Positions 38,877-63,100 of a stretch of DNA of 64,000 nt are shown here, piece by piece. Source of the stretch: Asterias amurensis (lineage: Eukaryota > Echinodermata > Asteroidea > Forcipulatida > Asteriidae); assembly GCF_032118995.1 (NCBI RefSeq), contig NC_092656.1, positions 21,596,965 to 21,660,964 on the forward strand, read 5' to 3'. Within the stretch, counting starts at the first letter, position 1; each line of letters begins with the position of its first letter. Both the position numbers and the translations under genes were made by a program. The notes under the pieces were generated by a model that saw only the letters and a program-made list of their open reading frames with translations, did no database searches and had not been told where the DNA came from.

Positions 38877-41800
38877 TCACGCTGGTGCTAGGGGAATTTT
38901 GAGCGGCCTGGCGTAGACGACAACATTGTTTCCTATTCGACTTTCCAGTGGTACATGCGTGTGGAAGAATGACGCAGCCTGTCAGGGGTTAAAGAGTTAG
39001 AAATCTGGTAATTAAAAAACCATATTGTAGCGTTGACTAGGGGTTCAATGTACACAGCTTTGAATGACAGAAATGATACAAATACTAGCTTTTGTCCTTT
39101 GTTCTGGAGCTTTATTGACACTCAAAAAGTCATGATTTTTACACAAAGAAGTTCGCCTAAATTAGAGGACCCCTCTATGGTAGCGAGTTTACCGATCGGC
39201 CTGCATGGGCGACAAGCAGTGCTCTGACATAACTCTTGAGAACGTGAATGCGATACAAGTTTTGACTGTTTTTGCAGCAAATGTTTTGCAGGAGTTCAGC
39301 ACAAGTCAACTTATGCGAATTATTCGCTGCAAATTTGTGACATCAAAATTCTCATCACATTCGCAGGAAGTATGAACTGGGCTTTAATGGATGAGCAGTT
39401 AATTTGCCTGGGGAATGTAGCAGCACTACTGGTTAGTGCATGATCCAATGAAGTCCAGTGTTTGGAAAAGCATTTACATACTATGAGATAACATGTGTGA
39501 GTTGCGAGCGGAAAATGATACGTCTTTTTAGCATCTTTCTTAAATGGAGCATTCTCGTAATGACTATTGACCTAAAATATAAAGCAATATTGAAAGTTGA
39601 GAAATTATTTACCTTTGTGTAGCCTTTACTTGACACATATCTTTTTATTTTCTGCAAATCAAAAATACAAATTATCAAAATTTTTGGCATTTATTATTTC
39701 ATTTGTTTTAATCCATTAATGTTGAGTATGTGAGGAAAGCTTAAAGGTAGTGTCATACCTACAAAAATTTAAAATAGAAGAAATTGTGCGCGAACAAATT
39801 TTGCTGAAGTGTCCTCCTTGATTAGAAATAATTATATAAAAGCATGGGTGGATTAGGTGTTTTTGATAAAATGCAGTTGGCAGCTTTTCGCTCTTTCCTT
39901 AACAAGTATGAACTTTTTTATTCTGAAACTTTAATCACTATTTTTTATGCAAGTTCGCCCTAAACAAGGCTACTCTTGGTATGTGGCTACAAGAAGAACA
40001 ATTATTTTTAAATGTGAAAAGAACTCGGGGGAGCTGAAGATATTGATATTCCTCCTAAAACAGTCTAGATTGTAGGATGGAGGGAAACATGCAACAGGCA
40101 ATGAGTTCCAAAGAGATACAGTACGTGGAATAAAGCTGCTGGAATGGCTCCTTGTTCTACATTATACATCTCAGCAGATCAAGAGTGTATGGATTAGAAG
40201 CCTTTAATTAGGCATCTGAAAGCACACAATTTTATGCAACAAGAGTGTGTTTTTCTTTCGTTGTTCTCTTGCAACTTAGATGACCAATTTAGTTCAAAAT
40301 TTCACAGATTTGTTATGTTATGCATATGTTAGGAATACCAGGTGAGTACTGGGTGTGGATTTCACAAAGATTTAAGACTAGTCTTAACTCGAGTTAGGTT
40401 GAGTTACTCTTCCTAACTTAGGACTAGCCATACGTTTTTTATATCTCCTAGGACTAGTCCTAAGTTAGGACTAGTCCTAAGTTAGGACTAGTCCTAACTC
40501 TTTGTGAAATTGACCCCTGCCCCCGATTTCAAGAAACTCATCACAAGTAGCGACACATCGTAGGGTTTGCGATGCGTCGCAGACCTATAAGACACTTCGC
40601 GCTGCGACGAGTTCGCAACTTACGACGTGTAACCGGTCGCAACTTGCACTTGCGACGCGTCGCAGCGCTTCGTGAAATCGGGGGCTGGTCTTTGACAATT
40701 ACCAAAGGTGTCCAGTGCCTTTCAGCCCTACTATAAATTTTGAAGTTTTCACTTTCACGTTCAGAAATCAAAGTTATCAAAAATTGCATTTACTCACCGG
40801 TAGGAGTACGTCAAAGAACACGAGGTACCTCGGTAGCTTACTACCGGCTTTGAACTCCGACTTGAGCCAGTCGGACGGATTCTCAAAGAAGATGTCCGCT
40901 TCGTCCTGGTACATGGTGTCCATGCTGTATCGACTAAGATTAGGTGGGCACTCCAGGAATCGCATTGAGATGTTAGCGTGAACATGGCTGAAAGTAGAGA
41001 TTGGATAGAGTTAAAAGCACCGAGATGGATTTCACAAAGAGTTAAGACTAGTCTTATCTCGAGTTAGGATGAGTTACTAGTCCTAACTTAAAACTAGTCT
41101 TATGTTTTAAATATCTCCTAACTCTTTTTGAGAGTTTTGTGATAATTATACATATATATGAATGGACTCTAACATTCACGTTAATTAATTCACATTACCT
41201 GAAGTACGGTGTAGAATGACACGGCATGAGAAAGAGCACGGACGGTACTTTGAAGTGAACATTAGGAGCGTGTGCTATCGTCTGCAAATACCCCATAACA
41301 TCAACGGTACCCCTCTGGTGAATAAGACCAGTGTAAAGACATGCTGGAAGATTGGTACACAGTATGAATATGGCCAGGCTGGTAGCCCGACCCGTTCTTG
41401 AAAGACTTCTTAGACAAACCCCTGTGTGGACGAAAACAAATCTTGAAAATTTCAAAACAAGCCTTTGATGGAATGCTTATTAATAAATAAAACAGCTTTG
41501 GACTCATTTTTTGAGAAACCTACTCTTGGGACTTAAAGCAGGGTTCCTCCCTTCACAGTCCATAAGGATGTACGCATGGGTATCATCCACTAGGAGCCTG
41601 GCTGGTAGAGCAGAAAGCACTGCCTACCTAGTTGTGTATGAAGCAATTACAGGCAAGTGCTTTGCTCAAAGGAACAAGTGTCATGACCGGGTGCTGCTGC
41701 CGACAACACCTGGGCCCAAATTCATAGAGCTTACCAACAGCCAATTTTGTGCGTACTTTACGTTTTCCATTTTACAGCATTCTAACCTTCCAGTGCTTAT

Positions 41801-44800
41801 CACAATACAAATCCATGGTGAATGCACAAGATGGCCGCCTAATTTACTTGCTAACATGTGTAATACGCATACACCTTAGCAAATTTATCTGCTACAGTAG
41901 GCAAACAAGATTGCTTACAGCTTACCCAAGCTTGGGTCAGGAGAGTTAATTAGACCTGTGGCTATTGGTTGGTTAACTCACAGGAAAGTTACCAAGAGAA
42001 CGAGAGTTAACAAAGGCCCACAATTTGAATCGTAACTTACCACAAAAAGCCATGGCTATGGGAACCAAAGGTAGAAGAAATCTGTACTCCTTGTGCTGTA
42101 AAAGGCTGGGGAAGAAATAAAGAAACTGGATTAAGAAAAGTGGTGGTCTGTGTTAACAAATGACACTCAACCAACCGGCATATTGTCAGCTTAAAATGGA
42201 TGTCTGCATGAGAATAGGAAAACGAAAAAAAACCTACATCCACCACACAAGCTCTAAAATGAAGGATTGCATCCAGCAACTTTTACGCTCCGTGCACATA
42301 TTGAGTAGTAAAACGATGAGTTTTGAGTAGCAACTGGTTGCAGTTTCCTAGTGAGTGTGCAATAAGCCTGGGCGACTAGTGAAACTTACTACTCGATTAG
42401 TCGTGACTAAAATAGTCCCCACTTTGACACTAGTCCCTACTAATTTTCAATTCCCAAGATTCATTGCAGTATATTGTTTGACGCAGGTCGCAACTTTTAT
42501 CTACTAGCTTTACAATCTTGTGGATTTTTCCTCCAAAATTGAGCCCTGGCATTAAAAAAAACTGCTCACCTATAAATAAATTGAGTCCACATCATGAGTA
42601 TGACGAGTGGTCTGTAGGAACGTCCAGCGAGTCGTATACCAAGAATGAAGGGTAGAATGTGAGTGCCCATAATGATGGGCAAGCCCTGGCTCAGATACCA
42701 GTGCCAGGATTGCGTCCCGTAGAAAGAGCTGATGTTGTACAGAGTGTTGAATCGCAGGAAGTTAAAATGTACAAAAACCCACTGGGAGGTAGAGAAGAAA
42801 GGAGGTTAAAGACACTGTTGGTAATTACTAAAAATAAAAAATTTACTTGGTAACGAGCAATGCAGAGCTGTTGATAGTATAAAACGGCTACCTCTGAAGT
42901 TGTTTTGGGGAAAGAGGTAATTTCTCACTCAAATTTTTGAATCTGACAAAAGACTTCAGGCCCGAAGCCTTTTATTATGCATCTGAACGCACACAAATTT
43001 GCGCAACAATGGTGGTTTTTTCTTTCATTATTCTCTTGCAGAATTAAGCGGTAAGCAGAGCCATGAAATTGGGCCCAGCTCTAGAATGAGGGGGTTCCCA
43101 CATAGCCAGTGTTTTTTTTTTTTTCCAAATTGGTAAAAGGAAAAAAAACAAATAATTATATTCAAGCATGGGATACTGGTTACATCTCATGTTTCAAGAG
43201 TAAAATATTTTCAACTTCATACCTTGCCGTAAAACAATCGATCTATCAGTAAGGAACAGCTGAGAGAAGCAGAGCTGAGGGAAGCAAGAAACAAAAAGAC
43301 CAAGCTGTTAATATTAAAAGCTGTAGCAGAGTGGTAAATGATAGCAGTCTCAAATTTTATTTTTATGCAAGTTCGCCGGTTCGCAAATGAGTTCGCAAAC
43401 GAGGCTTTTAGCCACTCTGGGTAAGGGGCTACAAGAAGAAAATGATTAAACATGAAAATAACTCAGGCGAGCTGGAGGCAGGAATTGATATTCCTCTTAA
43501 AACAGTCCAGATAGTAGGAAGGGGGGAAACATCCACCAGGCAAGGAGTTCCAAAGAGATGCAGTACGTGGCATAAAGCTGTTGGAATGACTCTTTGTTCT
43601 ACATCTCAACAAATCAAGAGTGTATGGGTGAGAAGAAGCAGAAAGTTTTGTTTCACGCTCAAACACCATATGAGGAACTAGGTCGGACACACTGGTGGCA
43701 CATTTACCATAAAAAAATACTATTATTATTCTTAACAAACTTTTCAACTTACGCCATTGGGATCATATCCACCAGGAGCGTGATGAACAAGTTTTGACTT
43801 CTTGCTAGATGCCATAAACACAGTGGGATCCAGATGATACCTGCTGTGGGGCGCATGACGGTGGCTAATGATGCGCAGAAGAGATACCAGCCAACTGAGG
43901 AACTGTATACAGGAAAGACGGATAAGAACTTAATCAATCATTGTTAGAATTAAAGTTAAAAACCAAAATATCAAAAGTTGTAGTGCATCCCCCTGGCTCT
44001 CTATAAACTTAGACAAACACTAAACAAAGAAGATACAAAGTTCAGCAGCAGAAGGAAACTGCAGAAGAAAACCGACCTAAAGACAAACTGGAATTACATC
44101 GAGGTCATAGAGGCCATGGATTCTGTTGCCCCTGGTCTCGATATTGGTGCCCCCACATTTAAAGTTTCCCATGACCTTGCCCTCTCTAAGACAAAATTCC
44201 ATGCCAGTAATTGTAAACAAGAGTGTATAGTCTGTAGGAAAATGGTCAGAAATGCACTGGAATGGACAAGTTCAGCTCTGTTTTGTAAACTTTGTTTTGT
44301 TCTCTAGCAGACGATCAGAGCATACTAATCGAAACGTCGAGTTGACACCAACGGTGTCTTTTCAGAAACAGCCCAACTCATTTAGAGATTATCATAACAT
44401 GGTGTTACCGCAAACCTTACTATATTATAAACAATACATCTTCTATCTATCTTCCAATGAGTACATCCCTCCAAAGGAGTATAGTCGTACTTGGGTGCAA
44501 AAATGCTTGGTCACTGGAACAAATATTTAAAAAAAATGGGGTACAGACTGAGGTCAAGGTGCAAGTAAAAAGATATCTTGGTCTACAGGAAGATGGAGGT
44601 GTTTACCTATTTCTGTCTGAGATGGAACCTTTGAGCATGTACAAAGGCCATGGGTAATGGAACAATCCACACACTGTCAGGATCATCTCCATTGTGTTGC
44701 TAAGGGTCCGAGCAGCCGTGTAGAAAACAAACCAGGAGCTGAGGTGACAGAACAGCTGGTGTTGACGTTGGGTCAAGGTTCACAATCTACCCTATGAACT

Positions 44801-46719
44801 TATGTGCCTAACCTAAGTAAAACTTTTTTTTCGTAATTGATCAAACGGACTGTTCATACACGATCAAACGAACTGGAATGCGTATGTTCAAAATTCAAAA
44901 CACTTTTGTATTTTTGGGTCTTAGACATTAGGTCAAGGTATGTGTAATTAACAGTGTTGTAGCCACAGTGTGAGCGCCGCCAGGTTGGCCCGACCACAGC
45001 TTAAATTTTTTGCCCAGCACTCGGAGCAGAATACACAATGCTGCCGAGCAGAGATTTCCCCAAAAATGTTGTGCATTAGTCTCAGACACCGCTAGCTGAT
45101 GATAAGGTGTATCAAATTACACAGAGAAAGAACACAGTCAAAAGATCTTTCATTTTTGCCCCATAACATGAACAGTTTGGAAACCTAGCATCATGCCTAC
45201 CTGAAGCTTGCACTTCAGAAATGATGGCCCACATAAAGTAAAAATGTTTGGATTAAGAAACCACCACCAAGATGGTCTAGCTACAACTCTGGTAATCAAC
45301 AATATGTGCCACAGCCAAACTGTTTTTTTTTTCGTAAACAAAGACGAGAAAATTAAAAGGATACAGCCCATCTTGCAGTGTCCTCGCCCCACATACGTCG
45401 GGCAAATTTATACAAGTAGAGATCTCCAATGGCTGAAAATGTGCCCTGGAGCATTCGAGGCAATACAATCTGAAATGAGAGAAGCAAAAACATGTACATG
45501 TAGCTGAATGTTTTTCTAAGAATAATAAATTCTTTCATCTTTAACAACTCACACCTATAATCTTTGAACTAGAGTGTGAACGCTCCACTTAATCTAGAGA
45601 ATCTGTGTCAAATTTCCTTAAAATTGATATTTGCCAGATTTAAGTGTAGTGTATACAATACACAGATAAATTCACACAGAACATTCTCTGCTCTATTAAT
45701 GGGGATGTATTATTGAACTGTCTTCTTACTATTAATATAGGATGATCCAGTTGTAGTACAGCTAGGGCTTTATACAAAACAGCAAAGATGGCTGGATGAG
45801 CAAAACCTCTCAGGCCTGTCCTCCATTCCCAAGTCAGATATCCATACGTGTCTTTATGTTAAGGTGTATTCAAAGAAATAAGATCACATTATCTTTGTGG
45901 TTATTGGGGTTGTGCATGCATATCCTAAAGGGTTAAACGGAACTTGCAGGCCTGGAACATCAAGGAGGCCCAGGGCCATGTTGCCCTGGTCTTGGCCTTG
46001 GTGCCCTTCAAAAGTTTCCCAGAGACTTCAAGATTTTCCAATAGAAGTGCCATTTTCAAAGTGAACTTTTAACTTCCAGTAAACTGTATATAGACAAAGT
46101 TAGTATACCTTTGATTGTTTTAATTCTTTAAAAAGGTAGATGTAGGCCTATACAATAAAACTAATCAATGAACATTTTTATTTCAAAAGATGGGCGCATT
46201 GTTTAGATCTAAGCAGCTCTATGAAATTGGGCCCTAGTCTAAGCCTTGGTGCCCCTTCCAAAATTTCCCATAATCTTACAATTTTTTCAATAGAAGCGCA
46301 CTTTGAAAAATGAAATTGGCCTTTCCCTCTCAAAAAAAGATGAAGTTCCTGGCCTGCCTAATACTACAAAAAGGATATCCAAAGACAACTTTGTGAGCCA
46401 CCTCCAGAGACTGCCAGTACTCGTCAGGAGCAAAATAAGTCTGAGTCAAGGCGGCGTTCAACCAACGGAACAAGATCAAGAGCAACAACATCCGTTTCCT
46501 CGGCCACGGTTTCAGCTCTGGAGAAGTTCTCTCTTTGGATAGAACTGGCTCGGGCGTCTTTTCTGTTTCCAACTGATTAGCGGAGCCTGCATTATTTCCT
46601 TCTGTTGTTGTGACCCTCGTTGACTGATTACTTTGTGTGGTGTGGTCTGGTTCCTCGTCTTCTACTGGTTGTTTAACTATCTTGGTGAACACCTGTCTTG
46701 ACCTCAGGCTGTGAGCCAT
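38877..46719 (-). CDS. PIGB: GPI mannosyltransferase 3 (PIG-B), complete, 12 coding exons
   Basis: Exons (minus) are 46379-46719, 45730-45847, 45365-45469, 44607-44755, 43753-43902, 43223-43274, 42570-42781, 42041-42105, 41199-41421, 40798-40987, 39613-39651 and 38877-38978. They total 1746 nt (581 residues; human is about 554) and all phases fit. PIG-B adds the third mannose to the GPI anchor precursor in the ER lumen. Recognisable family blocks are [98 protein letters not shown] and [13 protein letters not shown]. It is a multi-pass membrane protein of the GT-C type. The N-terminal 70 or so residues are polar and poorly conserved. A longer frame reaches GTG at 46731, but the ATG at 46719 is the better start. 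Introns 1 and 3 look U12-type. AATAAA lies a few bases past the stop. LINE and MITE fragments fill the introns. Confidence 0.95.
39212..39386. repeat. MITE related to the element at 1054-1188
   Basis: Shares ACGTGAATGCGATACAAGTTTTGAC and the GAAGTATGAACTGGGCTTTA end with the copy near 1.1 kb in shorter matching blocks. It lies in PIGB intron 11. Confidence 0.55.
39950..40195 (-). mobile_element. LINE 3' fragment in PIGB intron 10
   Basis: About 240 bp closely related to the fragment at 43360-43690, including AGTTCCAAAGAGATACAGTA and CCTTGTTCTACATT. Read on the minus strand it is the tail of the same non-LTR element, heavily 5'-truncated. Confidence 0.55.
40370..40516. repeat. Palindromic MITE with AACTTAGGACTAGTCC
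   Basis: Ends GTGGATTTCACAAAGA and TTTGTGAAATTGACCCC; the inside is built of CTAGTCCTAAGTTAGGACTAG repeats in short blocks. Related copies are at about 10426-10570 and 41022-41135. Confidence 0.68.
40520..40686. repeat. Palindromic MITE with CCCCCGATTTCA ends
   Basis: CCCCCGATTTCAAGAA at the left and TTCGTGAAATCGGGGGC at the right; internal GCGACGCGTCGC and GCGATGCGTCGC palindromes. It abuts the element ending at 40516. Confidence 0.68.
43360..43690 (-). mobile_element. LINE (non-LTR) reverse-transcriptase C-terminal fragment in PIGB intron 5
   Basis: The minus strand encodes [18 protein letters not shown], then LWNSLPGG and a FKRNIN segment. This is the typical end of a CR1/jockey-like ORF2 (R-T-x-x-x-x-S-F-x-P-R-T-x-x-x-W-N-x-L-P). 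Only the tail is present, with 3' UTR sequence toward 43360. Confidence 0.68.
44756..45364 (-). other. PIGB: Candidate U12-type GT-AG intron (PIGB intron 3)
   Basis: The donor on the minus strand is GCT/GTATCCTTTT, the minor-class GT consensus. Upstream of the acceptor, ...GTCAACACCAG/CTG, there is an ACCTTGAC motif that fits the U12 branch consensus TCCTTRAC, with its A roughly 17 bases from the splice site. The exon join yields [13 protein letters not shown] in frame. Confidence 0.68.
45848..46378 (-). other. PIGB: Candidate U12-type AT-AC intron (PIGB intron 1)
   Basis: On the minus strand the intron begins ATATCCTTTTT after ...GTCTTTGG. It ends CACCTTAACATAAAGACAC before GTATGGATATCTG. 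The donor matches the minor-class consensus, CCTTAAC matches the U12 branch site and lies about 10-12 bases from the end, and the intron ends in AC. Only this choice gives the expected [11 protein letters not shown] across the junction. A conventional GT donor 11 bases further in would break the frame with any AG acceptor nearby. Confidence 0.8.
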
Positions 46720-48587
46720 GACCTTTGACACGTGAACAATGCAACTTGCAGTCCTCCTGTTGATAGTTTCAAAGTGAAATATTGTTTTAAGCCAGGTCTA
46801 CTCTATATATTTGATGTATGTTTAAAATATTTTGGCAGGATGTCTTTTGTACTTTAGTTTAAACAAATACAGAAGAAGACAATAGAACATGTTATTGTAA
46901 TGCAACCAGGTCCAGACTAATTTTAGACTCAATCCCGATCCCTCTTTGTTTTTAACATGTTTAATGCATATTGTGAACATAAACCGATCCCACTACCCTG
47001 CCTTTACCCCACGGGTACTACAAGTGTTGTAATAAAAATAAATAAAAATAAATTGATAAGTAAAATATAATTTATAACTTTAGTAATAGTAGGTTAGGTG
47101 ATCGCCCAGGGATAACTTCAGGTGATCGCCCAGGGCAATCTGCCCACCTGGAACACCTCCTCTTGTTTGTTATTGTTAGTTTTAGTTTCATACCCAAGTT
47201 CCTAGATCTTCTGCAAATTTGCCTACAACTGTGTCCAAAACTCTCATGAGAATGATGCATACTAATGAAAGTCAACCGCGCTGCAGTGCGCGTCTCCACA
47301 CAGTTTCAAGTCACGGCAGTCAGAAGGGTTCCACTGCCCCACTGTCGTAAAGCAGCTGTACTATAAGCAAAGCATCATGCATGGACATCGAGAGACGGTG
47401 TCAGACAAAAGATCTTTAGTTGCCAAAACACTAAAGTAAGATGTTTATGGCATTAAATTACAAAATAAATTGTACGTTGGGTGGACCAGGTCGTATAACA
47501 AAAATCTTTTTGAAAAGTGGCATTCATGTTAAATCAATAAAGGCACTTTTGCATGTACTTACCGGCCTGTGGTTTCGATAGTCTAGTGCAAGAGGATTCG
47601 GCAAAGGATGTTTGAAGTAGAACGCCCTCTCGTGTTTCAAACTAGCTCTAGAAGGCTGGGCCCGTACAATCTCGCCTGAAATCACATTGATTTTTGCATT
47701 TACGAAGTCTGACAACAAGTCCTGCTTTTAAAGGTAAACTTTTTTATAATTTTGTACAAATTCCTGTGTTTTGTAACAGCATTTTATTTTGAGTTGTTTA
47801 TTATTTCGAAGAAGTTTATCACAAAGCTATCTTAGGAAAGGATCAGGAAACAGTTTGAAACAATTTGAATTCACAATGTAGGCTACTTTTCTCATTTTTA
47901 AAGCTGACCTGAGGGATAACTTTCCGTATGGCGCCACCAGTTTTTCACTCATTTTTACAAAAAGGGATATATCAATCAGGTAAATTAGATACTATATTAT
48001 TTTATTTCGAATGAAAAAGTGGTGGCGATACGGAAACTTTTCCGACCTGAGACTGAGAGGCTCAGCATGGAGCTACCTAGCTCTATTTTATATATGACCA
48101 TGACATGAGCTGAGCCTCTCAAAACTAACCAGGCTCGGTCGGGCTGTAAAACTGTTTCAAGAATCATATTGTTGTATTTGTATAAAATATAGTAACTTTT
48201 TATTTTAGTGGTATTGACGATTAGTTACACAGCTTCTTCAATCTAAATAATAATAGTATCCTTCTTTTCTTGCTATTCCTTGTTTATGTTCTAAAAAAAA
48301 CTAAACACTGTATGACATGATTGATAAAATAGTGTAAAGTTTATTTAATAGTAAAAATTAACACTGTGTCTCACTCTCTGTCTCACTCTAATATCTGCTA
48401 AAATGCCAAATTTGAGGTGAAACTTTCTCAGTCACTTTATTTATTTACTAGTACCACATGGATACATCAAACGAACAATATTACTAAACATGCTTAATAA
48501 AACTTTAAAATACATGCATACATTTTTACTGAAAATAAAACAACATTGTTCCATTTTTAATTAAGTACGTTTCCTTTTTATTCACAG
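46720..48587. promoter_or_regulatory. Head-to-head PIGB / PIGBOS1 intergenic region
   Basis: About 1.9 kb separates the PIGB ATG from the PIGBOS1 coding exon. It should hold the shared or bidirectional promoter and the first PIGBOS1 exon. GC-richer sequence lies at 47090-47400, where promoter elements are most likely. I could not fix a TATA box. Two foldback repeats occupy 47905-48050 and about 48052-48127. The rest is AT-rich without recognisable coding. Confidence 0.45.
47563..47675 (-). other. Unassigned exon-like segment between PIGB and PIGBOS1
   Basis: On the minus strand a 113-nt segment has a good acceptor (GTGATTTCAG) and a good donor (CCG/GTAAGTAC) and is open in one frame throughout, reading EIVRAQPSRAS... 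to LDYRNHRP. I do not recognise the peptide. It lies 0.8 kb upstream of the PIGB start, where an AG (ATCAACAG near 46756) could accept it, so it may be a 5' UTR or alternative first exon of PIGB. It could also be chance. Confidence 0.3.
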
Positions 48588-48863
48588 AACGCATCAAATG
48601 TTCATAGGTGGGACATCTCCCAAACGACGATGATTCGTATACCTAGATTGCCATTCCCACATATTGCCACGGCAACCATAGTCGGTGCTATGGCAGGGTT
48701 CTACATCTACAAGCCAATGTTTAAGAAGTATCATCTCGAACGAGCTGAGAAGGAACTGGCGGAGAATCAAGTGCCCGCAGAACTCAACATTGACCAAGGT
48801 GATGCAAACCAGGAAAGAACTATATTAGCGAGTACGACAAAGTCAGAGAATCAAAAATCATGA
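48588..48863 (+). CDS. PIGBOS1: PIGBOS1-like mitochondrial membrane microprotein
   Basis: The coding part is 48630-48863, a 77-residue single-exon frame. A strong acceptor (TTTTTATTCACAG) ends at 48587, so at least one upstream untranslated exon is expected. The protein starts MIRIPRLPFPHIATATIVGA, then MAGFYIYKPMFKKY and a charged tail with EKELAE. Human PIGBOS1 (54 residues) has the same layout: a short basic N-terminus, an ATVLG-type membrane helix ending in YIF-P-F--Y, then a Lys/Glu-rich tail. PIGBOS1 is known as a mitochondrial outer-membrane protein that binds CLCC1 and affects the unfolded protein response. The assignment rests on that alignment by eye and on its position opposite PIGB. 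The acidic C-terminal extension of about 25 residues is extra relative to human. AATAAA at 49690-49695 may end the transcript. Confidence 0.85.
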   Translation, partial: NASNVHRWDISQTTMIRIPRLPFPHIATATIVGAMAGFYIYKPMFKKYHLERAEKELAENQVPAELNIDQGDANQERTILASTTKSENQKS

Positions 48864-49118: not shown

Positions 49119-49240
49119 AAGGGGCACCAACACTTATGCCCGGACATGGGGCATCCGTGGGCACCAACACCAATGCCCGGACATGGGGCATCCGTGGGCA
49201 CCAACACCAATGCCCGGACATGGGGCATCCGTGGTCTCTG
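49119..49240. repeat. 37-bp minisatellite, three units, in the PIGBOS1 3' region
   Basis: The unit begins GGGCACCAACACCAATGCCC and ends GGACATGGGGCATCCGT. The first copy differs slightly (ACACTTATG). It lies between the PIGBOS1 stop and its likely AATAAA. Confidence 0.85.
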
Positions 49241-49390: not shown

Positions 49391-51784
49391 GGTCCCTCCT
49401 AACACGTCTCAACTACGTAATCTTCAGTTGACTTGAGGATTCAAATCTCAAGAGAATTGTCTTGTTAGTACTGGATCAGAGAGTGCACTGGTAGATCGCA
49501 TGCCAGACCTTGCCCCTCCTACAGGACCCAACTTAAACTGTGTTAATCTTTGGTAGCTGCTTGATGGCAAATTTGTTGGAGAACCCAAATGTGCTTGATA
49601 TCTTCACATCAAGAGAAAGAGATTGGGAAGTCATGTATTAAGACTGAGCTAAGACAGCAATGGAAGCATCCTTTGATTTAACTGTCATTAATAAACAGTT
49701 TTCTGTAATCATTTGTGATCGATGTCAGAGTTGCAGTGCAACCCTGTTGGTCTAAGAGACTAATGTAAATTAAATTTTAATTGTTATAATAATGAATGTG
49801 GTTTTATTGAAGCTGTTATTCTAATAACAGATCCAAATAGAAGCAGCTCTTTGCTTTTTGATGCTCTATGGGTCTTTTGCCTAAGTTGATCTATAAAGTA
49901 TGAGCTTAGTCCAAAGAAACTGGAAATATTGTTTGCCTTGTAATTTGCCTAGAATGAAAGTTTCTTAAGCGTCAGACTCTAGCTCTGATGGCTGGATAGT
50001 ATGCAGTTGCCGAAACTAAAATGAACAAATCTGCGAATCATTGGTTTTTGTAATGCTGCAAGTGCCCAATATGGCTATTAAAACAATTTCCCTCCAGTGT
50101 TTCTATTGTTCATATATCAGGCCTGATACTTCATAAAGGCAATTGCCTCCATGCCCCTTGGTGTGGTCAATGCCTTTGTGCCCTTGAAAAATGCTCCTGT
50201 AGAAACTTACAAATTCCTCATCTAAGGGTGTCCTTTATTAAGGAGAACATGTCTTGGTGCCCCTGGCCTTTCAAAAACGAAGCATCAGGCATCAAACAAA
50301 ACAAAATAAAATACACAAAATAAAGGCCTGGAATTCCATGGAGGTAGGCCATGGCCCTAGTGCCCCTTGGATTGGCCTTGGTGCCCCTTCAAAAGCTTCC
50401 CATAGATTGTTAAGGTTTTACTAAGTGAAGTGCCCTTTGCAAAATAAAAATGGCCTTGCCCTCTCAGGGATGAAATTCTAGGCTTGAAATAATCACTTGA
50501 TTTCAATACCTTAATGTAAATTTTTAAACATTCTCAAATCTTGTTTTATTACACAGCAACTTATATTTCATCTTGTATAAGATCAAAATACAACACAAAT
50601 CAAATCAAGTACACATGTATACAAATTAAATCCAATAATAATTATGTTAAATGTTTTTTCCTGAACTTTGAAAAGAATAACAGTTTCAAAGACAAATGTA
50701 CATAAAAACATGTTTATTAAAACCGTTGTCTTCCCAAAAAGATTGTTTCTTTATGTTGTGTAGTTTATGTGTCTTTATATTGTGATGTTTCAAAGAAGTT
50801 CCAATTTTGTTATATGAAACTATTCTGATGACAAAATTGGAACATACCCACAGTAAACTATAATTATTCTGAAATAAACCAAACGTTAAACATGCAGTGG
50901 TTCTTAAAAACATGCAATTCCTAAGTCTCATACTGACAAATAAGGAGGAGTGACTTCAAGTTTCTTGCAAGATGAACTGAATCAAATGGAATTTAAAAGG
51001 CAAGGTGTCACAGACTTCAAAGTGTGAATTGGAATCGGTATTCTGTGAATAGCTTTATAATATCGACCACTTGCACAACACGGAACACACTTTCACACCA
51101 TTTTGGGAGTTAATTCCTTTGTGTATTTTCTTTTTACTGCCAAAATGGGGGACAAAATGGTCACTGGCAAGTCTGCTGCGCTTTGTGCAAAGGGTCAATA
51201 AGATTAGTATGTTGAACCCCCATCTGAGATGAGTGAGGTTTGTTTTCGATTGTAGTGCAGTAAGAGTTAACCCGTTAACAGTTTTGGCTTTCAAGCGAGT
51301 TGACCAACTATTCAATTGTAGGGTTGTGTAGGGTAGAGCAACTGTACATGTATGCGCTGTGTAGATGTATTCCCTGCTTGATATCACATTTCAGGCTGGC
51401 TAAGTTTACTAATAACTCAAAACCACAGTGGATGATGTTGAATGATCAGACAATAGGGGGTAACAGAATTTGACGGTTCTTTTCTTGGGTGCAGTTGTTT
51501 CCAGAATTTCACGAGTTGAATAAGTGAATATCCTATAATAGATCCTGGGTGGGTCGTCTAGATGTGGTGACTACTAAACCCTGTGAGGTTAACTTGCTGT
51601 AAGACCTTTGCAAACTGGAAACTCCATCCTAACGCTGGAAAATAAACAACAGAAAAAAGATTTATTATAAGTTACTACATTGTATAGTATAAAGAACCAC
51701 TGATTCGAGAAATGTTCAATCTGTGAAATGTTGCCATGGAAACTTCAAATGACCAAAAAGTAAATATCTTTCCAAATGTCGGAG

Positions 51785-56513: not shown

Positions 56514-56997
56514 TTAGTCGACCTCTTCAACTGTAGGTCCTTGGTTGCTGCTCCCGCCGTTACTGTAACCTCCTGCCCCACACTGCGGCCCTGCCCCACC
56601 AGCCCCACCACCGCCCCCGTGAATCTTGGACATAATGGGTGAACAGGTCTTCGTGAGTTCCTCCTGCCTGTGTTTGAACTCGTCCACCTCCGCAAGTGAG
56701 TTTTTATCCAACCAATCCAGGGTGTCCTTGACGGCGTCTTCCACCATCTTCTTGTCCGCGTCCGTCAGCTTCCCGTCAGGGACTTCGTTCACGGCTTGCT
56801 TGAGGCTGAAGGCGTACCCCTCCAGCCCGTTTCGAGCTGTCACACGTTCCCTCTGCGCCTCGTCTTCGGCCTTGTATTTCTCGGCGTCCGACAGCATACG
56901 GTCAATATCGGCTTGCGAAAGGCGTCCCTTTTCGTTCTTGATCACGATGCTTTTACTCTTTCCCGTGCCCTTGTCCTTAGCGGAGACGTTCAGGATA

Positions 56998-57029
<32 letters not shown>

Positions 57030-59709
57030 TTGAGGGACGCCGCGTGGAGCAGGTGCAATGCCGGAGAGTTCAAAGGTTCCCAGGAGGTTGTTGTGCTGGG
57101 TCATAGGTCGCTCACCCTCGAACACCTGGATGTTGACACCGGGTTGGTTGTCGGAGTATGTGGTAAAGGTGTTACACGCTTTGGTTGGGATACGAGTGTT
57201 ACGTTCGATCAGCTTCGTCATGACTCCTCCTGCCGTCTCGATCCCCAGGGAGAGGGGTGCTACGTCAACGAGAAGGATGTCCTTCACCTCGCTACTATCA
57301 TCCCCGGTGAGAATAGCGGCTTGAACGGCAGCACCGTATGCTACCGCCTCGTCTGGGTTGATGGACTTATTCAACTCTTTGCCGTTAAGGAAATCTTGAA
57401 GCAACTTCTGTATCTTTGGGATGCGAGTTGAGCCTCCCACCAGTACCACCTCGTCAATCTTACGTTTGTCCAGCTTAGCGTCCACAAGAGCTTGCTCAAC
57501 GGGTCCGAGAGATTTTCTGAACAACGAGGAGCAAAGCTCTTCGAAACGTGCCCTGCTGACACTGGTGTAGAAGTCAATGCCGTCAATCAGCGAGTCGACC
57601 TCAATGTTGGCCGTTGTGCTGCTGGACAACGTACGCTTCGCACGCTCGGCAGCCGTTCGGAGACGCCTCATGGACCTTGGATTATTGGTCACGTCCTTCT
57701 TGTGTTTTCTCTTAAACTCGGCAGCCAAGTGGCTGACCAAGAGATTATCAAAGTCCTCCCCGCCGAGATGCGTATCACCGGCCGTAGATCTCACCTCGAA
57801 GACCCCGTCATCAATGCTGAGGATGGACACGTCAAAGGTACCGCCGCCCATGTCGAAGATGAGAACATTCTTCTCTCCCGTCAGTTTCTTGTCCAGGCCG
57901 TAGGCCAAAGCAGCAGCCGTCGGTTCGTTGATGATTCTCAGCACGTTCAGCCCAGCGATCACACCAGCATCTTTGGTGGCCTGCCTCTGCTGGTCATTGA
58001 AGTACGCTGGTACGGTCACCACGGCGTCTTTGATCTTCTGGCCCAGGTATGCCTCGGCAACCTCCCTCATCTTGACCAGGACCATGGAGCTGATTTCCTC
58101 GGCTGCAAACTGTTTGGTCTCGCCCATGTACTCGGCTTGGATCATCGGTTTCCCTGCTTTGTTGACCACGGTGAAGGGCCAGTGCTTCATATCGGCTTGG
58201 ACCGTCTGGTCCTCGAACTTGCGACCAATCAGGCGCTTCGCGTCGAAGATGCTGTTCTTGGGATTCCTGTACAATAAAAGACAAGTAAAAAAGAAAATGA
58301 CATTAGGTATTAATTTTTTTAAAGTTAAGTAAAGGGGCACATACATCATATTGCTATAGCACTGCACTCCAATTAACTAATTGGAAGTACTGTGTGTGTC
58401 GAAGCCAACAAAAAGAGTGCTGAAAGATGGCTCAGTTTAGGGAAATATAAACGGAAGCCACAGTTTTTGTCTAAGTTTTAATTAAAGTTTAGAACTTGTA
58501 GAATTACTATCCTTTTTGTGACTAACAAGTCATTTCAGTCAAAATTAACAAGCGAGTTTTTATCTAGGTTTTTTTTTGAATGAGCACGTTCAGCCTGCAA
58601 CAAATGAATTATATTAATGTTTATCTTTATTGTATTAGATTTGCTGGTGCAACCCAGATCAAAGTATCACGTATCACGTTTGTGTGGATGCTTTTATGAT
58701 AATGTCATCACAAAGAATGCCAGCACTGTTTGGAATGATAAACGAAAACGATTTGCGAGTTGTGTTTCGTCATTAATTATTTGACCTGTAAATGTTGCAG
58801 AGTGAACAATTTACGCCAATTCGTGTCAGTTGAACTTTGACATAAACATTTAGTACAAAGATGAGAGTTAAAGTTGGTCTGAGATAGCGCCTTTATCAAT
58901 TTTTTTGTTCATGACACAGGTGTAAACAAAAATGAAACAACATTAAAGATACTGGGTCAAATTTCGGGCGATTAATGAGAATGATTTTGGCACAAAAAAA
59001 ACCATCACTTATAGTAGTGGTAGTCGATTAAACTAAAAACGAATTATATTATACTGTAAAGGATCGCCCGGCATGTTCCTTTTTTCCCGTGCCAAATAAT
59101 TATGCGAAATGTTTATCATGTTTGTGCGGATCCTTTTGAAACAGCATCATCATCATCAAAATTCGTTCAGATAAAACACACTGACAAACAAACAATTTCC
59201 AGCAGATTATAATAATATTTCACTCAAATAAAAACCATAAATAATCGGCGTCTACCTTTTGGTTGTGACTCTCGGGTCAGAAATGGACCCGGTTCCGCTC
59301 AAAAGGGACCTGGCCTATTACTGGGTCAGTGTAACCCGGATTATTCTTGTCAACAAAAAATGACCGATAATGAGTCAAACTGGCGCTGAATCCGAGGTGG
59401 GTTTTTACTACAAGTTTCTGGCTCATCAGCCTGACCCAGAATGAGTCAAGTCCCACTGTGATCCGGGTCAATCTCCCTGATCCGGGAATTGTTTTGAGTA
59501 TAAATAAAATGCAAAACAAGTACTTACATGGCAACTTGGTTCTTTGCAGCATCCCCAATGAGCCTCTCCGTGTCGGTGAAGGCAACATAACTCGGCGTGG
59601 TCCTGTTCCCCTGGTCATTGGCAATAATCTCCACTTTGCCATTCTGGAACACACCAACACAAGAATAGGTCGTCCCCAAATCAATCCCGATCGCTTTCAC
59701 TTTGCTCAT
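56514..59709 (-). CDS. HSPA8: Cytosolic HSP70/HSC70 chaperone, complete, 2 coding exons
   Basis: Exons 59528-59709 and 56514-58266 join in phase 2 inside the Met of NQVAMNP, giving 644 residues (human HSC70 has 646). The ATPase domain carries IDLGTTYS at residues 9-16, [14 protein letters not shown] at 197-210 and [17 protein letters not shown] near 335. The substrate-binding domain follows. The C-terminus is a Gly-rich segment ending PTVEEVD, the cytosolic signature that binds TPR co-chaperones such as CHIP and HOP. IFDMGGG has Met where most relatives have Leu, a mild change. The upstream region has heat-shock elements, so the gene is probably inducible despite containing an intron; whether it is the constitutive or inducible paralogue cannot be told, so the symbol is approximate. 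Intron 1 (58267-59527) contains a repeat at about 59270-59470. Confidence 0.95.
59270..59475. repeat. Inverted-repeat element in HSP70 intron 1
   Basis: GGGTCA-rich motifs recur in both directions (GGGTCAGAAATGGACCCGG, CTGGGTCAGTGTAACCCGGA, CTGACCCAGAATGAGTCA, TGATCCGGGTCAATC). It looks like a foldback element, with less regular arms than the others. Confidence 0.5.
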
Positions 59710-59914
59710 CTTGAAAGTGATGTAGTCAATTGCGCTCCAGAAGTTGGAAAATAATGCGCTTTAAACTCAGTTTATGCACGTTCAGTTCGTAGATGCTTCA
59801 GTTGTATACCACACAGCAGATGCCTTCTCGTATTATTTTCGTCGCCAGGGGATGTATTTCCCAAATTCGGTGCTGGAATCTTTCGGATAACTGACGAAGC
59901 GACGGAGACTCGCC

Positions 59915-60011: not shown

Positions 60012-60155
60012 CGACAGGAGTGCTAGTGAAGTCTATTTTTTGACTTGACGTCACACACGAGCCCTCTGGAAATTTTTAGAATGTGGCCGAAAGGGGGCGT
60101 CCTAACACATCAACAAACGCAGTCTGTTTTTTGCTAGTCGCGCACAACTTCAGCA

Positions 60156-63100
60156 ATGGCGAATTCTTCTGGAAATATCTGCGTGAAGTTTTCTGAGAAA
60201 ACTGGAAGAACTCGCCTCGATGATGTCGATTTTTCATCATTAGTTGGTACTCTTAAGGAACGGGTGTCCCAAGCTATTGGTTTACCGTCTTCAGAGTTTT
60301 GTAAGATATTTTACAAATTAAAGTTTATTTTTGTATTCTACTTTCTAGTATTTGGTCCGCCATCCGCCCGGCCACTGCACTGGACTTGTTTTGTTGTGTT
60401 GTGAAATACAATAATTTATTACACATGTCATGATGTTGATGTAGAATTCATACAACATATTTTTTAATTATAAAATAATATGACATTTACTGACAAGTTC
60501 GATTAGTTACAGCACATCAATAGCATACTTTTCATTGAGTATTTCATGTTATTGTTTAGTGTTAAGCCTGGCTGGTGTTGTTTAGTGTATGTACATGGGG
60601 GGGGATGAGCAGATGAGGAAGGAGTTGAGAGTGTGTATTGTAAAACCAAAAGTGACTCACGACCACCAAGCAATTCGATAATGCGTAGGCGTACGGCATA
60701 TATGACTGTTAACATTTTGTTTGACCACAGATAAATTACAAAAAGCGGGGAAATAAAGTCCATTCCTACAAACAAAAACAAAAACTTTGGAAAATGGCAA
60801 CCGGATTTTAAATACAAAGTCATTGAATTTCAGGTTAACAATTCTGTAGCTTACTTGGGCAAAACCCATTGAGTCTATTCTACTCCGTAATTTTTTACAT
60901 TAGTAGATTTTTTTTTTAAATGTTTCCTTTTTTCCCCCCAATTAAATAGCGATGGTTTACTGTGGTCGAATCCTGCGAGATCAAGATGCCTTAAAGCTAT
61001 CTGGACTTGTGACTGGATGTACTGTACACGCCCTTAAAAAGAAAGCTCCGTTGCAAAAATTGCAAGCAGGTAAGAACCTAATCTTGGCCCAAGGCGTTAG
61101 CGATCGGTTAGTGGATCATGTACTGCGCTGAGGCGCGCCCTTTTAAGGCATGATTTTACCAACTTGACTACCTCAAACCAAGCATCTTGGAAATCTTGTT
61201 AGTGCTAGGCAGTCAAGTTGGTTAAATGATGCAGTAGGAGGGCGCGCTTTAGCGATTTACAACCGAGTACACAGTACACTATCCACTATCGATCACTGAC
61301 GTCTTGGGCCAAGACTAGTAAGAATCTACTTAAAATGACATACCAATAGCTCTCCAAACATCAAAACCATACATGTACCAATTCAGAACCAAAGCACCTT
61401 CCAGTCATGAATAACAATAAAATCCTGGTGTTTTATCCAGAGCCATTGGATGATACTGCAATTCGCCAGCTGATGACAGCACTACATGCAGCTCTACTCA
61501 ATCCAGCACACAGACAAGCAGTAAGTAGTAACTATTGACGGACTATTGACGGACTATTGACGGACTATTGACGGACTATTGCAAAGTGTGCATCTTTCTT
61601 TTTCGCCATTTTGGGACCCAATTCTTTTGTTGACTCCCAAAATGGCGGACATGATAGGTGCGTGCATTGAGCAAGGAACTATGGTGCGTGTAAGTGCGCT
61701 CCACATTTTGAAATAAGTCAATTTTTGTGTTCTTGATGCACATGTTAATCATCAACATGGGCAGGCCTGACATTCGTTCTTCTAAGGGCAAAAAGCAGTT
61801 TTTCCATCAGTTAAGGTCACTTGTATTATGAGGGAAATAAAAGTTCTTTACAGAAAATCTTGAAAGACACAGAGGCAAAGACCAAGAAGCATAGAGGCAA
61901 TTGCCTCCATGAAGTTTCCAGGCCTGTATGGAGTCATTTAATTATAATAATAACAATAGTATGAAGTTTTTATATAGCACTTTTTCACTTCCGAAGGGTG
62001 TCCCAAAGCGCTTCAAATTATTACTCCTGGTCACTGGGCCTTAAGTCATTCCTTAAACCATCTCAGCTCCCTGGGGAGTTTACAGCCTTGTGCAACAAAG
62101 CGCTACTCGGCTAAATCAATCACAAGAACCATTTCTGCCCTCACAGGTACCCATTTACCCCTGGGTGAAGAGAAGCAATTATAGTAAAGTGTCTTGCTCA
62201 GGGAAACAAGTGTCACGACTCGAACCCCCACTCTGCTGAACAGAATCAGCAGAGCTTGAATTCGGTGCTCTTATCCGCTCGGCCACGACACCCCTTGTAA
62301 GGTCAGGGCACAGTGTGTGATATAATATCCACTATCATTACCCCTTTCAGCCAAAATGGGTACTTTAGTTGACTGCACTACCACTCGGCCACAACACAAA
62401 ACATTGTACCAGTGTGTCAAACATAAATATTACTTTTCAATTTCTTTTCACCCAGGTACACAAGATCCTTACAAATTCGGAGACCATCGATAACATCATT
62501 GCAGTCACTCCCGGTCTCGCTGTGGACCACATCGCAGTCTGTAAGTATTACACTCAGTTCCATCATGGAGGTAGAATTAGTTCCATTTGCTTTATGAAAC
62601 AAACTCAATTTTAAGACAGAAAAAAATATTGGAAGGCGTTTTCATACCGCCAACTTTTTAACTCGTGTGCAAGTTTCTGTTTGCGATTTACAATACCATT
62701 AGCAAGTTTCCGCTAAGCAAAAGTAAGTTGGATACCGGTCACATAATGTACTTGATGTTTTGGCTAATAAAATTGTTCTGATAAGCATAACTTTTATTGT
62801 GTTTAGCTGTTTGTTTGTGTTTTAACTCGTGTGCAAGTTTCTGTTTGCGATTTACAATACCATTAGCAAGTTTCCGCTAAGCAAAAGTAAGTTGGATACC
62901 GGTCACATAATGTACTTGGTGTTTTGGCTAATAAAATTGTTCTGATAAGCATAACTTTTATTGTGTTTAGCTGTTTGTTTGTGAACTTGAAGTAAAGACG
63001 ACCGTTTTAGAACCAATAAAACATTTTTTTCTAACCAAAAAGTTTGTTTTCACTATCATTGGCTCAGTTAGTGTGATTATCAGTGAGCTCATTATCAACC

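Follow-up and report, generated by a model that had tools for sequence, protein, structure and literature searches.

Does PIGBOS1, a known 54-residue microprotein (PMC10073203, PMC7066179), have a counterpart outside vertebrates that stands beside the PIGB gene, as it does in human? The question is raised by a short open reading frame at positions 48630-48863 of a 64,000-nucleotide stretch of the sea star Asterias amurensis (contig NC_092656.1, positions 21,596,965 to 21,660,964; here called the window), which is read divergently from a PIGB gene. The explanation that fits best, and that is very probably correct, is that the frame encodes the PIGBOS1 orthologue of the sea star, a microprotein that crosses the outer mitochondrial membrane once and whose gene forms a divergent pair with PIGB, probably since before the echinoderm-vertebrate split. 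Within this explanation, family membership, genome uniqueness, a complete PIGB and the head-to-head order were established directly.

Identity of the PIGBOS1 frame

The frame lies on the plus strand and comprises 77 codons and a stop in one exon (its translation is MIRIPRLPFPHIATATIVGAMAGFYIYKPMFKKYHLERAEKELAENQVPAELNIDQGDANQERTILASTTKSENQKS, followed by the stop). Against the Pfam family PF23670 (PIGBOS1) it scores 49.2 bits (E = 5.8e-13) and passes the curated cut-off of 27, with frame residues 1-51 aligned to model positions 1-49 of 54 and the ATG codon at model position 1. When the genome was scanned with the same model (491,506,623 bases in 23 contigs, the window being C9:21596965-21660964), this locus, at 48.7 bits, was the sole match above the cut-off after all five first-look candidates had been scored; just two runner-up places were found, at 16.4 and 16.3 bits (E > 5). 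At this sensitivity, the exon sequence has no second copy in the genome. Among 14 control genomes, matches below the cut-off were found in two, both bacteria.

The similarity survives control for composition. None of 10 rearranged versions of the frame (five shuffled by segment, four shuffled in full and one reversed) matched PF23670 at E <= 10, in a test whose filters remove most matches above an E of about 0.1, and shuffling the membrane helix alone lowered the score to 7.8 bits. Compared by BLASTP with human PIGBOS1, 16 of 41 positions are identical and 26 are positive (E = 5e-10, composition adjusted). No shuffle, out of 5000 made by segment and 5000 made in full, reached the Smith-Waterman score of 78 against the human protein, the best shuffle scores being 69 and 52. 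By fragment, residues 1-27 score 24.7 bits on PF23670, residues 1-34 score 40.1 and residues 12-51 score 36.6, while residues 28-77 alone reach 11.3 bits (E = 0.41); the family signal is thus carried by the anchor together with the YIYKPMFKKY motif. A sequence search of the PDB with the frame gave six matches, none of them a relative (best E = 0.38), and no relative was confirmed among 18 pattern matches in viral contigs or 158 in prokaryote genomes, as expected for an animal gene.

Judged by its sequence, frame 48630-48863 is a genuine PIGBOS1 family member, and this identity is secure. The original prediction, which described a 77-residue frame resembling PIGBOS1 head to head with a complete PIGB gene outside vertebrates, is therefore borne out in its core, including the motifs that it listed as common to the human protein: the basic N-terminus, the ATVLG-like membrane helix (AT-x-x-G) and YI-x-x-P-x-F-x-x-Y.

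The neighbouring PIGB gene

PIGB occupies 12 coding exons on the minus strand, from 46719 down to 38877, and encodes 591 residues and a stop. It extends complete to 38877, so that most of it lies outside the interval first given for the pair (46379-48863). A family search of the window returned five PIGB exon matches, and tblastn gave 10 collinear matches from 46437 to 38898; its guide was human PIGB, and the comparison covers the protein from about residue 95 onwards. One other tblastn match, at 2530-2360, was set aside as chance (E = 0.42). The predicted protein scores 356.6 bits with PF03901 (Glyco_transf_22), from model position 3 to the last, 414, and hence holds the full domain; aligned with human PIGB, it shows 45.6% identity across 491 positions (428 bits). 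The best other PF03901 locus, among five compared (L004, L006, L007, L009 and L010), scores 35 bits against sea star PIGB and 37.7 against human PIGB, in a test that covered loci of this genome, with human ALG9, ALG12 and PIGZ outside the comparison.

Exon 1 (46379-46719) begins with the ATG at 46719. Human-guided tblastn and the gene model define exons 2 (45730-45847), 3 (45365-45469), 4 (44607-44755), 5 (43753-43902), 8 (42041-42105), 10 (40798-40987) and 12 (38877-38978, with the stop), and the family search adds to both in exons 7 (42570-42781) and 9 (41199-41421). The two exons missed by tblastn, exon 6 (43223-43304) and the 39-base exon 11 (39613-39651, the better of two frame-keeping candidates), were assigned from the reading frame, the splice sites and similarity. 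Two of the introns are, by consensus, apparently of the U12 type. Intron 1 (46378-45848, minus strand) is of the AT-AC kind, with donor ATATCCTTTT, a branch-like CCTTAAC and an AC acceptor; intron 3 (45364-44756, minus strand), of the GT-AG kind, has donor GTATCCTTTT and a branch-like CCTTGAC. A narrow literature query for PIGB with a U12-type intron found no paper.

Predicted transcripts and the stretch between the genes

The ATG of PIGBOS1 (48630, plus strand) and that of PIGB (46719, minus strand) stand head to head, 1910 bases apart. For a random head-to-head neighbour the chance is about 1/33,000, given the 16,531 genes reported for A. amurensis (PMC10625585). The splice sites considered here were scored with a simple hand-made matrix and are predictions only. 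A strong predicted acceptor, TTTTTATTCACAG/AACG, lies just before 48588 and 42 bases 5' of the PIGBOS1 ATG; it scores 10.2, within the top 0.09% of AG sites on the plus strand of the window, and exceeds the 8 U2-type PIGB acceptors scored singly (0.9-8.6). It would open a predicted second, coding exon that takes in at least 48588-48863, and it makes an untranslated first exon likely, as in human PIGBOS1, which has two exons with the coding sequence in exon 2 (PMC6814811). This suggests that the sea star gene may share the human layout, with its coding sequence wholly in predicted exon 2. An upstream open reading frame of 11 codons (48598-48633, plus strand) would lie in the leader if the acceptor before 48588 is used; its TGA overlaps the PIGBOS1 start codon as ATGA, which could allow reinitiation if the exon begins at 48588.

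The candidate last base of a non-coding first exon of PIGBOS1 is 47435 (plus strand; AAA/GTAAGATG), with a donor score of 4.1 that falls within the range of 8 U2-type PIGB donors (0.9-5.8). On the minus strand, a candidate non-coding PIGB exon would end at 47563 (CCG/GTAAGTAC; donor score 6.6, top 0.08%) and could be joined to a weak predicted acceptor before 46756 (score 1.2). If both donors were used, the 5' ends of the two predicted transcripts would overlap, as do the first exons of human PIGB and PIGBOS1 (PMC6814811). A further donor, at 47979, falls within a repeat element and was discounted for that reason. This element (about 47911-48045, ends approximate) resembles a miniature inverted-repeat transposable element; it has imperfect inverted repeats at 47914-47932 and 48025-48043 and matches 41 other places in the genome at 175-234 bits, 11 of them on contig C19, after scoring of 40 among 1775 first-look candidates. 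Two further observations between the genes, both set against mononucleotide shuffles, were not counted as evidence: a single TGATGCAT, at 47253, where 0.18 would be expected, and seven TATA-like sites, a chance number (5.6 expected). On the 3' side of the PIGBOS1 stop a 37-base unit is repeated in tandem about three times at 49122-49234 (97% matches), and the first AATAAA, at 49690, lies beyond them.

The predicted protein and its possible mode of action

Hydropathy and a single-sequence fold both point to one membrane helix near the N-terminus, and basic residues flank it. All 19-residue windows with a mean hydropathy above 1 lie inside residues 4-31, the best being 9-27, and the fold places a helix at residues 10-45, with a predicted local distance difference test (pLDDT) score of about 76-87 over residues 11-40. 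In the pairwise alignment with the human protein the helix retains its GxxxG spacing (sea star G19-AMA-G23, human G17-IAG-G21). Such spacing favours helix-helix pairing.

From family knowledge, a mechanism may be proposed. The weakly hydrophobic helix, which spans residues 10-27 or thereabouts and follows two arginines, would act as a signal anchor that leaves the C-terminus in the cytosol, and its GxxxG would permit helix pairing, in keeping with the oligomers reported for human PIGBOS (PMC6814811) and for fly PIGBOS, which self-associates and forms mitochondria-associated bodies, both of which need the full-length protein (PMC12740097). The juxtamembrane YIYKPMFKKY would be prolonged as a cytosolic helix that might, with some uncertainty, dock a partner on the endoplasmic reticulum (ER). 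Expression would be from a two-exon transcript that begins between PIGB and PIGBOS1.

In human PIGBOS, residues 30-36 are critical for binding to CLCC1, and an alanine mutant of residues 30-32 loses function and fails to rescue (PMC6814811). These residues are a feature of human function and not of the Pfam family PF23670. A CLCC1 (MCLC) homologue is found on contig C13 of the sea star genome as two adjacent exons (33.8 and 26.3 bits, cut-off 25), and an ER-stress role of sea star PIGBOS1 is possible. Two statements of the original prediction about the C-terminus do not hold. The extension at residues 52-77 had been called acidic, yet its charged residues are 4 acidic and 3 basic; it had also been taken as a feature of the lineage, whereas fly PIGBOS (CG34310), a homologue outside vertebrates placed in the cup locus, is longer still at 129 residues (PMC12740097), so that a tail exceeding the human length does not set the sea star lineage apart.

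Weighing the explanation against its alternatives

Several results count against the explanation preferred here. The best 19-residue hydropathy mean, 1.2, is low for a membrane helix, and the full-length fold model is of modest quality (mean pLDDT 67.6), with a doubtful second helix at residues 59-73. With the membrane helix masked, no PF23670 match remains, which leaves the helix and its flanks as the basis of significant kinship. The human PIGBOS1 sequence used for the comparison scores 80.8 bits on PF23670, a positive control that supports its letters. In the pairwise alignment with it the sea star retains one of the seven human residues 30-36, the tyrosine, and the human EQ that precedes it is KK in the sea star. 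The ER-stress role is thus not implied by the sequence, and the suggestion that conservation points to an ancient role of this kind is weakened; with six of the seven residues different, the sea star protein would bind CLCC1 by other residues or have another partner. Pairs that share a bidirectional promoter often have starts within 1 kilobase and often a CpG island. Here, CpG observed/expected ratios in 200-base windows over 46700-48699 run from 0.17 to 1.05, inside the usual range of the window (median 0.77, 90th percentile 1.21), and hence there is no CpG island between PIGB and PIGBOS1. Among the motifs sought between the genes, namely the ER stress response elements ERSE and ERSE-II, the unfolded-protein response element, the cAMP response element, NRF1, ETS, ZNF143, YY1, TCTCGCGAGA, Sp1 and CCAAT, none was found.

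The alternative that survives best holds that the pairing with PIGB has been kept by chance or by slow rearrangement, with two separate promoters and no regulatory meaning; it stands a little short of evenly balanced. The 1910 bases between the start codons, with their inserted repeat, favour it, as do the missing island and the lack of any usual shared-promoter motif among those tried. So do the described place of fly PIGBOS in the cup locus (PMC12740097), provided that fly PIGB lies elsewhere, and the report that in human cells knock-down of either PIGB or PIGBOS1 leaves the other unaltered (PMC6814811). Against it, the human first exons overlap, and the PIGB and PIGBOS1 mRNAs both fall after lipopolysaccharide in one cell line (PMC6814811). 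The predicted donors at 47563 and 47435 would moreover permit overlapping 5' ends in the sea star. The cell line of the lipopolysaccharide experiment is presumably mouse.

A second alternative agrees with the preferred explanation on identity and parts from it on function, and it deserves serious attention while being somewhat on the improbable side. The frame would be a true PIGBOS1 orthologue whose ancestral job was not CLCC1-dependent control of the unfolded protein response; what is conserved would be the anchor and the pairing motif, and CLCC1 binding would have arisen or been tuned in vertebrates. The concentration of kinship in residues 1-34, the single CLCC1-critical residue kept, and the dependence of fly self-association and mitochondria-associated bodies on the full-length protein (PMC12740097) are in its favour. 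The CLCC1 homologue in this genome argues the other way, binding could outlast sequence change if helix geometry matters, and the comparison was with a single human sequence.

That the locus is a decayed or untranscribed PIGBOS1 relic is very improbable, with a frame that is open without a stop, an A at -3 of its ATG and a strong predicted acceptor upstream. Least credible of all is a chance or convergent membrane frame that merely resembles PIGBOS1, which has on its side the short sequence, echoes below the cut-offs (DUF1761, 16.3 bits; UPF0154, 15.7 bits), the weak PF23670 matches in two control bacteria and the abundance of ATG frames of at least 77 residues (51 in the window vs 9-17 in 20 shuffles), and which is rejected on genome uniqueness (nothing else above the cut-off in 491 megabases, this frame exceeding it by 22 bits) and on the negative shuffle controls, the start codon at model position 1 and the place beside PIGB also speaking against it.

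The host and other features of the window and genome

The origin of the pair outside vertebrates is upheld by the mitochondrial code of the host. In COX1 on the mitochondrial contig (C23) there are 11 in-frame TGA codons, 6 AGA codons read as serine and 8 AAA codons, several of them at asparagine positions (e.g., GGFGNWL), which fits the echinoderm/flatworm mitochondrial code. The codons were read against the conserved residues of COX1. Two nuclear COX1 copies were also seen on chromosome C5 (658874-660214 and 675294-676634); they lie 16,420 bases apart, the mitochondrial contig being 16,427 bases, which suggests tandem whole-mitochondrial insertions.

Elsewhere in the window, several carboxylesterase genes lie on both strands at 2000-22300 (PF00135 in 4 of 4 frames tested). 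An HSP70 gene at 56514-59760 (minus strand) has a 620-codon frame (PF00012, 743 bits) and a likely 5' exon, placed by eye, at 59524-59760. Fragments at 60138-61535 (plus strand), none of the three of which matched Pfam at E 0.01, resemble UBL7, a ubiquitin-like protein. RAB27A and CCPG1, the human-type neighbours of the pair, were not recognised by eye among the listed open reading frames (limits 35-90 residues), and no profile search was made for them.

Comparison with known systems

That the microprotein might be older than usually assumed stands in part: it is homologous and paired in an echinoderm, but its presence outside vertebrates is not new, since fly CG34310 is in print and the Pfam family is curated. 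What is modestly new is the pairing of PIGB and PIGBOS1 outside vertebrates. Literature searches found no paper on an echinoderm PIGBOS1 or on such a pairing; these searches were weak, the invertebrate query also missing the fly paper. Many human bidirectional promoters are reported to have arisen after the chicken/fish split (PMC2423431), an emergence that an echinoderm pair would predate. A wider scenario is tentative and rather unlikely as a whole: the PIGB-PIGBOS1 unit would be at least as old as the echinoderm-vertebrate ancestor and kept as its neighbours changed, with ancestral PIGBOS1 a self-pairing outer-mitochondrial anchor that gained its CLCC1/unfolded-protein role later, in vertebrates. 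The locus adds an echinoderm version of a mitochondrial microprotein linked to stress, which in its discoverers' description has no paralogs or homologs, and it separates an old part, the anchor and juxtamembrane motif, from a part not kept, the human CLCC1-binding residues. Should the same pairing turn up in further invertebrates, the two genes would form a divergent pair of unusual age, and their pairing would aid annotators of an easily missed gene.

Sea star PIGB conforms to GPI mannosyltransferase 3 (PF03901) and is otherwise without unusual features. Drosophila CG34310, which could be compared by description only, differs in its place in the cup locus and in a second membrane helix; like the sea star protein, it is an invertebrate PIGBOS1 homologue that exceeds the human size, and its first membrane helix is conserved with mammals (PMC12740097). 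From human and rat PIGBOS1 (54 residues; PMC6814811) the sea star protein, which is known from sequence alone, differs in its 77 residues and polar, near-neutral tail, and from the human protein in keeping the tyrosine alone of the CLCC1-critical residues 30-36. It is like them in the start at model position 1, the arginines before the helix and the shared AT-x-x-G-x-x-x-G-x-YI-x-x-P-x-F-x-x-Y, and like the human gene in standing head to head with PIGB and in a coding sequence confined to one exon, before which a leader exon is predicted.

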